Assembly (NCBI GenBank): GCA_947456795.1
Contig: CANGTI010000002.1
Location: 124,001 to 188,000 of the forward strand
Direction of reading: 5' to 3'
Source: Rickettsiales bacterium
GTDB lineage: Bacteria > Pseudomonadota > Alphaproteobacteria > Rickettsiales > Rickettsiaceae
Length of the DNA: 64,000 nt
Notes under the pieces: model-generated
What the model saw: the letters and a program-made list of their open reading frames with translations, nothing else
What the model was told of the DNA's origin: nothing
The model's database searches: none
In this document: positions 36,199 to 51,879 of the stretch, piece by piece
Layout of the letters: each line of letters starts with the position of its first letter
Numbering within the stretch: the stretch's first letter is position 1
Position numbers and translations under genes: made by a program

Positions 36199-36845
36199 TC
36201 CACATACATTCTCTACCAAAAGTAAATTACTTTCGGTAGAGTCACTCGAGCTCTTGGGTTGTACTTGAGAGCCTAGTGCGATATCTAAGCAAATGTGCTT
36301 ACCCCCCCTTTTTTTTGCGCAAAATCATGTGAATGTTTTTCGTTGAAAAATTTCATAATCTTTGCAAAATTCTCAAAACAAAAACAGGTAGGCCAACCTA
36401 GAGAGTCTTAGACTCTTCATGTCTAAGCCAAATTGATTTCTGAAATTTTTTAGAAACACCGCTGGCACAAAAACATAGAAACACATCCATTTTACTTAAG
36501 GTCTTTCTACGAGACAGATATAAAAATATAGCAATACGTTCTTTGCATTCTAGCGCTTAAGTATTTTACTCGCAAAAATTTAGCATCCAAATATATTGCA
36601 AAAAACTGTTGCTACAATGGATTCTAAAGGATCTATATCTAATGAAATTTGATTAACTATCATACAATGCTTTTTCACAGCAAGTTACTAAGCTCAAAGC
36701 TTAATCTTGAGTAACACATCATCTCTAAGCCCAAATAAAGAGTTATTAAGGCTCTTAAGAGTTAAACTCTACAGTACGAATAAATAATAGGGGTATTGGA
36801 GCAATAGGGTTTCCTCTTTAAATAGAATTTGCGAATCTAATGAAG
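36199..36845. other. Intergenic region between pal and tRNA-Val
   Basis: About 650 bp with no gene on either strand. It holds the hairpin cluster listed at 36211-36318 and a 7-nt perfect inverted repeat with a single-base centre (AGAGTCT-T-AGACTCT, 36402-36416). The rest is AT-rich with no further structure that I can support. Confidence 0.5.
36211..36318 (+). terminator. Hairpin cluster and C/T tract downstream of pal
   Basis: Three stems stand in tandem after the pal stop. The first is CTCTACC/GGTAGAG extended by AAAGT/ACTTT (36211-36241). The second is CACT..GCTCT/AGAGC..AGTG (36243-36278). The third is AAGCA-aatg-TGCTT, followed by a run of seven C and about eight T (36302-36317). The last stem plus T run resembles an intrinsic terminator, although the T run is separated from it by the C run. 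Confidence 0.45.
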
Positions 36846-44837: not shown

Positions 44838-45461
44838 GTGACTAACATCGCAAAATCAAAATACAAAGTCAGCCGAAGATTAGGCGTGAGCATATGGGGA
44901 GACGCTAAAGATCCTTTCCTTTCCTCTAGAAATTACAAGCCTGGTCAGCATGGAGCAAACGCTAGGACAAGCTTTTCTTACTATGGAAGAAGGTTGAGTG
45001 CCAAGCAAAAAATCAAAGCCCATTACGGTAGAATCACTGAGACGCAATTAAGAAATACATTTGAACTTGCTAAGAAAACTCAAGGTAACGCTGCGGACAA
45101 CTTCATATCCTTATTGGAAAGAAGACTTGACGTAGTTGTCTACAGACTCAACATTGCCCCAACAATTTTTACGGCAAGACAACTTGTGAGTCACAAACAT
45201 ATAACCGTCAATAGTAAAGTAGTAAACATTGGAAGCTATAGAGTCAAACCTGGAGATATCATAGGGCTTACAAGTAAATCTCAAGAAATGAAGTGCATCT
45301 CTGACTCACTGGAGATGATGGCAAGACAAGTACCTGGTTATTTGAAGATGGATGCTAAAAATAAAATTGGAGTCTTTGTAAGAACCCCTGAAAACTTTGC
45401 AGAAGTGCCTATTCCTTTTCAGGTAGATACGGATCTGATCATTGAGCATTACTCTCGATAG
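44838..45461 (+). CDS. rpsD: 30S ribosomal protein S4
   Basis: 16S-binding assembly initiator of the small subunit. The start is GTG at 44838. The N-terminal region (KYKVSRRLGVSIWGDAKDPF), YKPGQHG, KQKIKAHYG and the S4 RNA-binding domain (ERRLDVVVYRLNIAPTIFTARQLVSHKHITV) are all in place. 207 residues, the usual length. It is a single gene, not part of a ribosomal operon, as is normal in alphaproteobacteria. Confidence 0.97.
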   Translation: MTNIAKSKYKVSRRLGVSIWGDAKDPFLSSRNYKPGQHGANARTSFSYYGRRLSAKQKIKAHYGRITETQLRNTFELAKKTQGNAADNFISLLERRLDVVVYRLNIAPTIFTARQLVSHKHITVNSKVVNIGSYRVKPGDIIGLTSKSQEMKCISDSLEMMARQVPGYLKMDAKNKIGVFVRTPENFAEVPIPFQVDTDLIIEHYSR

Positions 45462-45505: not shown

Positions 45506-45703
45506 ATGTCTTTATTTATTAGATTTGCTGCGATAAAGCTGGTAAGGCTTTATCAATTGTGTGTGAATCCCATCTTCTTTGGGGGTTGTTGCAGATTTAA
45601 TCCAACATGTTCCAGATACGCTATTATAGTGTTAAAGCGATTACCTTTAAAGATTGCATTTTATCTAATCTGTAAAAGACTGCTAAAATGTCACCCCTTT
45701 TAA
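45506..45703 (+). CDS. yidD: Membrane protein insertion efficiency factor YidD, 3' end apparently shifted
   Basis: 65 residues matching YidD: IRLYQ-type KLVRLYQLCVNPIFFGGCCRFNPTCSRYAI and the end KRLLKCHPF. The family continues with a short GGxDPVP-like tail, but the frame stops right after HPF at a TTTT-TAA. Removing one base of the CCCCTTTT run would read on as KGDNHYLQNQ and 19 more residues to a stop at 45791. So either the tail is lost, the gene is frameshifted, or the run holds a sequencing error. YidD helps YidC insert membrane proteins. Confidence 0.8.
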   Translation: MSLFIRFAAIKLVRLYQLCVNPIFFGGCCRFNPTCSRYAIIVLKRLPLKIAFYLICKRLLKCHPF

Positions 45704-45791
45704 AGGAGACAATCATTATTTGCAGAATCAAGATGTAGATTTTTTGCAAATGCTTGAATCACATCCAATCCTTAAAGCACCTTCCAAGTAA

Positions 45792-47425
45792 CTATTAAAC
45801 TTACCTCTTGATCCTTTGTCCTTGTCTTTCGACAATCAGTCTTTTATACCTTAGACCACAAAAAAGGGTGACTCCGCTTATTGCCAACAAAAATCACTAA
45901 ACCGGATTTTTACATTCTTGTTTATTCTAAAATTTGCTAGAAAAAAAGATAAAACTAAAGACAAAAAGATTTAAATCCCTGCAGTATTCTAAAAATCTAG
46001 CAACAAGCTACCGAAAAGATGTGCGGGAATGATCAATAAATTTCATACTAGCCGCACCTAAAATAAAGGCATAGTTCCCTTACTAATCCTGCATAGCCGT
46101 GCAATAAGACTCTAGAACAATATTGCTAACAACAAGCTACAAATACACCAAATGACTATATACTTAGAGCGTTGGGGATCTGCACGAAAGTAATGCAAGA
46201 CCGGCAATACAGTCGCCCAAAAAGCACAATTTAAATTAAAAATCCCACCAAAGATACACAACTAAATAATTAGAGCAAGTTTGTATAGGTCTGCACAAAA
46301 AAGTGCTCAACAAGACCTTAGAAATGTGGCTAAGGGCTCTAATAAGCTACAAAAGGTCAATCAAAACCCCTCCACCAAGCAGGAGTACTGCCCTGCCAAA
46401 TAAGACACACGGCAATACGGTGAAGATAAACATAAGGAACGAAAAGGTCCATCAATGCGGCAGGTGGCACACCCGCGCAAGAAAAAAATACGACTGAGGA
46501 TAAGCTAAGACCAATGCCCAAGAGTATAAACTCACAAGCCCCCCAGACAACACACTATAAAGGCAAACACACCTAAGAAATTTACTAAAGAACAAACGCA
46601 ATTAGGTTGCTTTTAGAAGAGTAATTAAAACCCCAGCACATAGAGTGCTCAAGAAGACTTTGGCAATATTACTAAAACAAGATACAAAGACACAAAAGGT
46701 GCACAACTGTAAACCCGCACAAAAGGGCACAACACCCTGAGCCAAAAGGACCCATGAAATGGGGGTTGCAGGCATCCGAGAATACTTGCCAAAAGTCGAT
46801 CAATTCACAAGCGAACCAGCACACCAAAAGTACTTTAAGACCCTAGCTAACCAATACCTACTAAGGAGCATCTAAATAACTTACCGCAAAGCGCGTACCA
46901 CCCCTCCACCCGCAAGAAAAAGTGCCGCCCTGCACCAACAAGACCTTGTAAATAGAGTAAAACTAAATAACCTTCAGGCACAGTTTGTATAGGCGCGCAT
47001 AAAAGAGCGCTCAACAAGATTTTGAAAATATCACTGAGGACAAACCAAAGAATCCATCAAAAAGGCAATATTAATGCTTAGCAGCGTGTAAAATGCACCA
47101 AAGTACTTTAAAACCTTTGCAATACACTGCTAATGGCAAATCAAAGAATCTATAAAAAAAGCACAATATAAATACCGCGCTTTGGCAAATTTTGGAAGCT
47201 GCAACAAAAAAAAGAAGGATGCAGGCCTTAAGAAAACAGTGCTAAAAGAGGAGTCAGAGCTAACATGAGGCTATGAATGAGAGAAAGATGGCTTGTTGAG
47301 CCACAATAACTCGGTAGAACCTACCTAAAGCAATACAGACACACAAAAGCTGTAGTGGTTTCAACATTCAAAAGCAGGCATTTGAAGCCTAGAAAAAAGG
47401 CAACAAGATGAATGCCAGCGAGACA
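45792..47425. repeat. 1.6-kb gene-free block with degenerate repeats and small hairpins
   Basis: No coding frame is supported and stops are frequent in all frames. On the plus strand the block is A/C-rich and T-poor from about 46.2 kb on, unlike the flanks. Related copies recur. A small stem-loop followed by TCAA(C/G)AAGA occurs at 46293, 46636 and 46995. GTTTGTATAGG occurs at 46279 and 46983, CCCCTCCACC at 46367 and 46901, and AAAGTACTTTAA at 46827 and 47100. ACTAAATAA and (A/T)AAGCTAC strings also repeat. Copies are diverged and not evenly phased, so this is not a CRISPR array or a clean tandem repeat. Confidence 0.55.
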
Positions 47426-47761
47426 TTAAGCAGCAGATGAGCTTTGTCTCTGCAATGCCAACTTTTCCCAGTGCTTAACTTTAGCATCCCATTTTTGGCG
47501 CATCTTGGAGGGAACATCAAAACCTCCCCGAACCAAGAGCTTTAGAACAGAGTCCGTTGGATGAGCACCGCAGTTAAACCAGTAGCTTAGCCTGTCAGCT
47601 TTTAACACAAACCTCTCGGCGTTATCCTTGGCAAGCATTGGATGATAAGTGCCGAGTTTTTCCAAAAATTTACCATCACGCTGCACAGTAGAATCTGTAG
47701 CAACAACAGCATAACAAGGATGACTCTTTCTTCCCGCTCTTCTTAATCTAACTTTGACCAC
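47426..47761 (-). CDS. rpsP: 30S ribosomal protein S16
   Basis: 111 residues beginning MVKVRLRRAGRKSHPCYAVVATDS, close to the family MVKIRLKRxGxKKxPxYRIVV start, and including FLEKLGTYHP and the Trp/Leu-rich segment WFNCGAHPTDSVLKLL. The start codon is GTG at 47761. In most bacteria it leads rpsP-rimM-trmD-rplS; here it lies 20 kb from trmD-rplS and pairs with rpmG instead. Confidence 0.96.
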   Translation of the reverse strand: MVKVRLRRAGRKSHPCYAVVATDSTVQRDGKFLEKLGTYHPMLAKDNAERFVLKADRLSYWFNCGAHPTDSVLKLLVRGGFDVPSKMRQKWDAKVKHWEKLALQRQSSSAA

Positions 47762-50272: not shown

Positions 50273-50998
50273 TCAATTTGGCATACTCCGTTGCCTTTTG
50301 TGCACATAGCTTTTATCCACAAAGATGATAGAAATGCGCATGTTAATTGGAGCTAAAGGATGCTCTTTATCAATTAAATCCCTATCCCCATTGCCAGTAA
50401 CCTTAATAATTTGATCATTGCGAGCATATTTTTCCAAATAACGCCTTACAATATTAGCGCGACAAAAGGAAAGATTCCAACAATCGGCACTCCGTGCACT
50501 TGAGCAAGCATGACCTTCAACCACTACGTAATCCTTTTGATTTTTAAGAATCTGTTTGCCAAAGCTATTTATAAGATTTACGGCCCAAGGTTGTAAATTT
50601 GCTGTAGAAGAAACAAAAAGAGAGCGATTATAAGTGTCAAACAAATCTACAACTACGCCGTTATGCCAATAGACACAAAAATTATCTGCAAACTCTTTTG
50701 GGATTTCGCTGTCCTTAACGCTTTGGAGAACGCTAGAAAGCCTTTCTTTTTCCTCTGAAGACAAACCCTTAGCAGAAAAAATATCCTTTTCCTGATCAAG
50801 GATAGATTTTTGCTTTACCATTTCTTTGACAAAATCAACTTTTTGACTCGGAGCATTTTCACCAAAATATTCAGATATACCTTGCAAGTCAGACTCAGGA
50901 ACTGCTCCTACAAGCCACAACATCAAAAAAAGCACCATCAATGCCGTAATAAAGTCTGCATAAGCAATTTTCCACGTGCCTTGTATCTTGCGAGCCAT
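50273..50998 (-). CDS. motB: Flagellar motor stator protein MotB
   Basis: Stator subunit anchored to peptidoglycan. The single membrane segment carries the proton-binding Asp in WKIAYADFITALMVLFLMLWLVG (Asp 15). A plug/linker region and the C-terminal OmpA-like domain follow (VVVEGHACSSARSADCWNLSFCRANIVRRYLEK). 241 residues is short compared with E. coli MotB (308). It directly follows motA (14 bp). Confidence 0.92.
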   Translation of the reverse strand: MARKIQGTWKIAYADFITALMVLFLMLWLVGAVPESDLQGISEYFGENAPSQKVDFVKEMVKQKSILDQEKDIFSAKGLSSEEKERLSSVLQSVKDSEIPKEFADNFCVYWHNGVVVDLFDTYNRSLFVSSTANLQPWAVNLINSFGKQILKNQKDYVVVEGHACSSARSADCWNLSFCRANIVRRYLEKYARNDQIIKVTGNGDRDLIDKEHPLAPINMRISIIFVDKSYVHKRQRSMPN

Positions 50999-51012
50999 AA
51001 AAGTGGTGGTTT

Positions 51013-51879
51013 TTAAGTTATTTTCAAAGAGTTTTCACGAATAAATTTTTCCGTCTCTTGAAAACTAGGTCTACACTTGTCCGGAATTGCTTCTCTGACA
51101 ACCTCTACTATCACAACAGGAGAATGACCATTTAAATAAGAAAGCATCCCAATTCTAAGACAATTGAGAAAATCCACTCTATGTTGCATTCTACTCATAA
51201 TAAAATGCCCAACAGGAGAAACCAGAACATATGACAGTAATATTCCACAAAAAGTACCAACCAATGCAGCAGCAATCTTTTTACCTAAAACCTGAGGAGG
51301 CTCTCCTATACTTTTCATAGAAACTATCACTCCAAGCACTGCTGCAACTATACCCAATGCTGGTAAGCTGTCCCCTAGTTGCAAAAAGAAATTTCCATAC
51401 GCACCATTTTCTTCATCATGAGATTTAATCTGTTTTTTCATAACAGTGTCTAAGACATCTGGATGAGACATACCAAATGTTATTAATCTAAGACAGTCAC
51501 ACATAAAATCTAAACCCTTAGGGTCATGCAACAAAAACGGAGCACTCTGAAATACCACACTATCAACAGGACTGTTAATATGTTTATCTATTTCCACCAC
51601 ACCCTTGGCTTTAACAAGCCTAAAGATGTTAAAAAAGAATAAAAGCACTTCCAAATAATCTTTTCGTACAGGAATTTCAATTTTAAAAAGATATTTTAAA
51701 GAGTAAAAAGATCCAACGACCACCCGCCAAGGAGCAGTAAAAATAGCAGCACCTATTGCCGAACCAAAGATTATAAGAAATTCCCAAGGCTGAAACAATA
51801 ACCTCAACTCTCCACCACAGCCTAAATACCCTACAAACATCGAACCAAAAGCCAAAAACAGCCCAGCTAAAATGACCAT
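51013..51879 (-). CDS. motA: Flagellar motor stator protein MotA
   Basis: Proton channel partner of MotB with four membrane segments. Landmarks: the first membrane region (LAGLFLAFGSMFVGYLGCGG), the charged cytoplasmic loop, and the conserved LGDSLPALGIVAAVLGVIVSMKSIGEPPQVLGKKIAAALVGTFCGI before segments 3 and 4. 288 residues, the usual length. It lies 8 bp downstream of tadA on the same strand. Confidence 0.95.
   Translation of the reverse strand: MVILAGLFLAFGSMFVGYLGCGGELRLLFQPWEFLIIFGSAIGAAIFTAPWRVVVGSFYSLKYLFKIEIPVRKDYLEVLLFFFNIFRLVKAKGVVEIDKHINSPVDSVVFQSAPFLLHDPKGLDFMCDCLRLITFGMSHPDVLDTVMKKQIKSHDEENGAYGNFFLQLGDSLPALGIVAAVLGVIVSMKSIGEPPQVLGKKIAAALVGTFCGILLSYVLVSPVGHFIMSRMQHRVDFLNCLRIGMLSYLNGHSPVVIVEVVREAIPDKCRPSFQETEKFIRENSLKIT

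Follow-up and report, generated by a model that had tools for sequence, protein, structure and literature searches.

A decayed block of direct repeats in the spacer between converging yidD and rpsP genes of a reduced Rickettsiales genome

We analyzed a stretch of 64,000 nucleotides (hereafter the window) from a Rickettsiales genome of 573,489 bases in 5 contigs (G000), in which a repeat-bearing block lies between yidD and rpsP. The initial gene list was cut at 100 amino acids, and the 65-residue yidD gene at the upstream border of the block fell below this cut and was therefore missed; a shorter piece of it also matches PF01809 (E 2.1e-15). Because yidD ends at 45703, the true spacer is 45704-47425, flanked by the converging yidD and rpsP genes. 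The features of the locus are as follows.

44838-45461, plus strand: rpsD, ribosomal protein S4 (NF003717, E 3e-68)
45506-45703, plus strand: yidD, 65 amino acids, upstream border of the block (PF01809, E 5.7e-16)
45704-46060: yidD-side part of the spacer, free of repeat excess, like other spacers; GC 32-36% and AT skew +0.03 to +0.18 in tiles
46061-47260: repeat-bearing core, A-rich on the plus strand, with diverged direct repeats; GC 35-48% in 200-bp tiles
46086-46136, plus strand: weak repeat copy, hairpin columns unaligned (19.2 bits, E 0.0031 within the block)
46278-46340, plus strand: repeat copy 1, stem GCAC 46293-46296 with GTGC 46303-46306
46366-46508, plus strand: second repeat, copy 1, beginning CCCCTCCACC; 60% identity over 154 columns to 46900-47048 (E 0.064 alone)
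46621-46682, plus strand: repeat copy 2, stem GCAC 46636-46639 with GTGC 46645-46648
46900-47048, plus strand: second repeat, copy 2, which extends into repeat copy 3; weaker pair with 46366-46508
46911-46967, plus strand: weaker repeat copy, hairpin columns unaligned (13.6 bits, E 0.075 within the block)
46982-47044, plus strand: repeat copy 3, stem GCGC 46995-46998 with GCGC 47007-47010, the 5' arm 2 bases off relative to copy 1
47426-47761, minus strand: rpsP, ribosomal protein S16, the other, converging border (TIGR00002, E 2e-25)

The gene order rpsD-yidD-rpsP is common to G000, to a sister genome of the same genus (G001, contig CAJBEU010000002.1) and to a genome of the same family (G018), with relatives of yidD at the same place in both. 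The yidD-rpsP spacer is 1.72 kb long here, about 0.9 kb in the sister and under 0.2 kb in G018. As a separate observation on this 573-kb reduced genome, MotA- and MotB-like genes lie on the minus strand at 50273-51879 (PF20560, E 1.9e-18; PF13677, E 9.2e-14).

Comparison of the block with itself yielded a summed self-match score of 135, whereas none of 100 dinucleotide shuffles exceeded 64, and so the repeat signal that an earlier note on this DNA had described stands above chance. The core (46061-47260) by itself reached a sum of 119, with 49 as the largest value in 50 shuffles, and the yidD-side part (45704-46060) held no repeats above chance, its score being reached by 13 of 50 shuffles. 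Among seven other spacers tested in the window, only 36199-36845 exceeded all its shuffles in repeat content. This spacer is located before tRNA-Val/tRNA-Pro: it contains 19 short hairpins where 6.2 are expected and 10 stems of 5 bp where 2.5 are expected (each reached by 0 of 200 shuffles), its short direct repeats were reached by none of 50 shuffles, and it has no Rfam match at E <= 1.

Three copies of a unit of about 63 bp are separated by 342 bp (copy 1 to 2) and 362 bp (copy 2 to 3), in agreement with the distance of about 350 bp claimed before, and their alignment needs a single 1-base gap. The stem-loops at 46293, 46636 and 46995, each followed by TCAA(C/G)AAGA, are present as the note had them, and the strings it listed as recurring (GTTTGTATAGG, CCCCTCCACC, AAAGTACTTTAA and ACTAAATAA) were each found repeated. 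The main repeat pair, 46260-46361 and 46961-47069, is 71% identical over 109 columns, made up of 77 matches, 18 transitions, 7 transversions and 7 gap columns; a further pair joins 46293-46357 to 46636-46700. After the weak copy at 46086-46136, the model of the unit found three more matches within the block (E 0.075, 0.15 and 0.38). With the three copies taken out of the block, both halves of the unit still recurred weakly, the summed score of either half being reached by 0 of 100 shuffles. The consensus of hairpin plus tail, allowing up to 3 mismatches, matched 10 times in the window, where 4.5 matches are expected and 3 of 100 shuffles reach 10. Against the minus strand of the block, the unit's score was reached by 5 of 100 shuffles. 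A lag scan suggested a period of about 89 bp, which we keep as a candidate: single strong lags confound the comb test, and random lags matched the fit in 2.5%, 8.7% or 26% of trials according to the choice of lags.

The note had taken copy 3 to change both sides of its stem while keeping the pairing, a sign of selection on structure. With AGTTTGTATAGG (12 identical bases) as left flank and GCTCAACAAGA as right flank, copies 1 and 3 align gap-free, and these identical flanks fix the register in which the stems are to be compared. In this register, none of the four stem pairs is changed on both sides, and 11 of 12 cells are paired across the three copies. At column 18 all three copies carry A, and the change of its partner from T to C in copy 3 leaves an A-C mismatch, so that the pair is lost; at column 19, a change from C to T in copy 3 opposite an unchanged G gives a T-G wobble. 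The hairpin of copy 3 uses a GCGC 5' arm that lies 2 bases further 5' than the GCAC of copy 1, and the apparent compensation therefore results from comparing arms at unlike positions. A doubly gapped alternative alignment does give one compensatory pair, with a lower hand-counted score (1 versus 5 over 17 columns). The three copies thus display no covariation, in a test whose power is low with three copies only, and the particular change that the note cited is absent. Furthermore, the hairpin columns were left unaligned in all four weaker plus-strand matches shown (46086, 46911, 46552 and 46436).

Short hairpins are nevertheless in excess over their expected number. The block contains 13 GC-rich 4-bp hairpins versus about 3.6 expected, a count reached by 0 of 200 shuffles (1 of 500 in another set), and 32 hairpins of a looser class versus 21 expected (9 of 200 shuffles). 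Stems of 5 bp are not in excess (9 versus 7.4 expected, 68 of 200 shuffles), and the sister spacer shows no excess of GC-rich 4-bp hairpins (1 versus 1.6 expected). Between 45400 and 47500 we counted 10 terminator-like sites, 9 of them on the T-rich strand, versus 2.3 expected. Copy 1 folds well relative to shuffles (z -3.3 on the plus and -3.5 on the minus strand); this does not hold for copy 2 (-0.6 on both strands) or copy 3 (-1.3 plus, +0.4 minus). In 120-nt windows over the block, mean fold z was -0.54 (plus) and -0.18 (minus), with 1 of 80 windows below -2, versus means of 0.07 and 0.02 in control tiles of the window. Folds of 1 kb gave z of -0.57 (plus) and 0.03 (minus), and the rpsP-side 585 bases of the sister spacer gave -0.20. 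Copy 1 excepted, the average folding of the block is close to that of shuffles.

The strand bias in composition reported earlier is real: AT skew is +0.33 over the spacer, rising to +0.56 in 200-bp windows, and ranges from +0.27 to +0.56 on the plus strand of the core, into which the composition shifts gradually. GC in the core (35-48%) is mostly higher than in 200-bp tiles of the seven other spacers (22-40%). At 4-fold sites read on the plus strand, AT skew is +0.16 for genes on the plus and +0.28 for genes on the minus strand, with a GC of 26-28%. The core exceeds 4-fold sites in GC and so departs from the composition reached by unconstrained sites; its AT skew is likewise higher than theirs. 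Strand-specific mutation could explain part of its A excess, not its GC. In the sister spacer, the half next to rpsP has a GC of 38-45% and an AT skew of +0.15 to +0.26; elevated GC and A content is a trait common to both spacers without common sequence. This composition would suit a source shared by both species that was once richer in GC and then decayed in each of them separately, and it would also suit a weakly constrained element. The A excess and raised GC of the core are explained only partly.

Searches outside the spacer did not recover the unit. A covariance model of the three copies (R1), of the kind that the note had proposed for a genome-wide search, returned at E <= 0.01 only these three copies in G000, G001 and G018. 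Its next best matches were one in G018 (E 0.41) and, within G000, the weak copy at 46086 (E 0.90); on the sister and G018 loci, the best match within the sister spacer had E 0.98 and the best overall, outside the G018 spacer, E 0.055. The score of the unit against the sister spacer resembled that of shuffles (reached by 46 of 100 on the plus and 31 of 100 on the minus strand), so the stems are not conserved in this related genome, one of several outcomes that the note itself had named as together telling against its reading. Against five other spacers of the window (plus strand), the unit's score was reached by 34 to 97 of 100 shuffles. The block as a whole was aligned equally well or better with the sister spacer by 72 of 100 shuffles, versus 0 of 100 for yidD in the same test, and the score between the yidD-side parts of both spacers was reached by 10 of 100. 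In reverse orientation, a similarity between the two spacers was matched by 0 of 100 shuffles at permissive gap costs; it was rejected when stricter costs gave 25 of 200. The sister spacer (1916-2840 of locus L051, minus strand) has a different direct repeat of its own, 88% identical over 34 columns at a spacing of 161.

When the DNA of 57 relatives was searched with the spacer region, a single match resulted, 34 bases long, at 45721-45754 on the plus strand (85% identity, E 1e-3), in the frame of an ankyrin-repeat gene of another genome (locus L010 of G013). We treated this candidate ankyrin remnant as probable chance, since Ank_2 is absent from G000, G001 and G018 at E <= 10 and, when the peptide of this segment was compared with solved structures, MccF was the only match (E 0.56). 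Plasmid, phage and viral collections held no similar DNA. In Rfam, no family reached its gathering score in the block (best sub-threshold E 0.073). A diverged core RNA hidden in the block was considered and rejected: RNase P and tmRNA were found above the cut-off elsewhere in G000, together with an SRP RNA candidate below the cut-off. Tandem Repeats Finder at score 30 found no array in the block, and near-identical head-to-tail copies are absent. A narrow literature search did not find this spacer named.

We weighed several explanations of the block. As the note had stated, all six frames contain stops, 25 to 41 per 571 codons, where composition predicts about 35 on the plus and 30 on the minus strand. 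Its suggestion of a long-decayed repetitive gene can be framed as a core that is the remnant of a lost plus-strand protein gene with internal repeats, broken by stops and small indels. Five of nine gap-free repeat pairs are spaced by multiples of 3 (96, 210, 342, 534 and 537), unlike the other four (272, 628, 704 and 937) and the distance of 362. The amino-acid similarity of the repeats is, in some frames, somewhat above that of column-shuffled controls: the best of six frames for the main pair 46278/46982 was reached by 14 of 1000 shuffles and two others by 58 and 56; pooled in-frame pairs were reached by 66, 97 and 59 of 1000 (two plus frames and one minus frame); and an 18-base repeat pair was reached by 10 of 1000 in one frame. 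However, frame contrast under a codon-phase model was 3.05 (plus) and 3.53 (minus), below the shuffle means of 4.13 and 4.18, and the six read-through frames had no credible Pfam match, the best (E 0.058 and 0.2) being to unrelated families; three shorter pieces likewise had none (best E 0.068). A combined read-through query, in which the best plus frame was joined to one frame of the sister spacer, recovered both source spacers and, in 83 other genomes of the family, gave three matches of E 0.050-0.060 and none better. At the DNA level, 84 other genomes of the family were searched with the core; 10 of them, G001 and G018 not included, gave short matches at E <= 0.01 that cover 25 to 56 bases of the query, compared with 1 of 85 genomes when the sequence was reversed. 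We opened four of these 10 places, and each falls within an open reading frame on the same strand as the match, one place being open on both strands. The genes concerned differ, however, apart from one gene that is hit in two genomes. Our guess is that the excess over the reversed control reflects shared short coding-like words. These codon-level signals are possibly a weak hint of a lost gene and no proof of one; what stands of the suggestion is this hint, with a credible family match and a reading-frame signal both absent, and we regard such a gene as possible, though on balance rather unlikely.

The two other suggestions of the note, a family of small structured RNAs and protein- or DNA-binding repeats, would make the repeats a selected set. 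The excess of 4-bp hairpins, the folding of copy 1 and a GC above most other spacers are what such selection might leave. Set against them are three copies that lack covariation, weaker copies whose hairpin columns do not align, average folding near that of shuffles, an Rfam comparison of the block in which no gathering score was reached, a sister spacer with no trace of the unit, and a genome with no further copy at E <= 0.01; we consider selection of this kind improbable. An element of either sort that turns over fast, kept in the rpsP-side half of the spacer within the genus by virtue of composition or simple hairpins rather than sequence, is in our estimate very improbable. The unusual composition would also suit an assembly error or a foreign insertion, to which the plasmid and phage searches speak neither for nor against. 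Since the sister has the same gene order and a long spacer, G018 shares that order, and the composition changes gradually into the core, we find this scarcely credible.

We propose instead that the block is probably a relic spacer without function in a small genome, its core consisting of local duplications that have since decayed. The setting would be that of a strongly reduced, rickettsia-like genome, in a spacer between converging genes. Local duplication of segments of A-rich, moderately GC-rich DNA may have generated the core, after which the copies would have drifted to about 70% identity, mostly by transitions and small gaps. Shifted or unaligned in other copies, the small hairpins could be by-products of the repeated sequence. 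The analysis shows the repeats, how far they have diverged, a search that recovered them nowhere else in the genomes covered, and three copies that do not covary; we infer both the absence of function and the origin of the copies by slippage or recombination. Because the hairpins lack the matched changes expected under selection, the block is most likely ordinary genomic debris. Several observations run against a relic: the GC and AT skew of the core, the excesses of 4-bp hairpins and terminator-like sites, the folding of copy 1, and a sister spacer that is likewise richer in GC and A in its half next to rpsP.

Rickettsia palindromic elements, which are dispersed over the genome, resemble this block as short repeated DNA with possible hairpins in a rickettsial genome. 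They differ from it in that the unit here occurs in one spacer only of the genome searched (G000), and its 4-bp stem is not a conserved palindrome. Ehrlichia ruminantium belongs to the order Rickettsiales, and tandem repeats in its noncoding regions were reportedly described by Collins in 2005 and Frutos in 2006. PMC10710844 describes these tandem repeats as undergoing active expansion and contraction. In both cases an intracellular bacterium has repeats within long intergenic regions, and the repeats would arise as spacers lengthen and shorten; unlike the active repeats of E. ruminantium, the copies here are only about 70% identical and thus probably old.

The block is a decayed repeat block in a spacer, real but ordinary, and so far found in one genome. 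Its analysis adds the missed yidD gene and carries a caution, that hairpins read by eye in diverged repeats can look compensatory if the arms compared differ in position. It also provides a small example in which two sister species, each with a genome of about 0.6 Mb, differ in the length and the repeats of one spacer.
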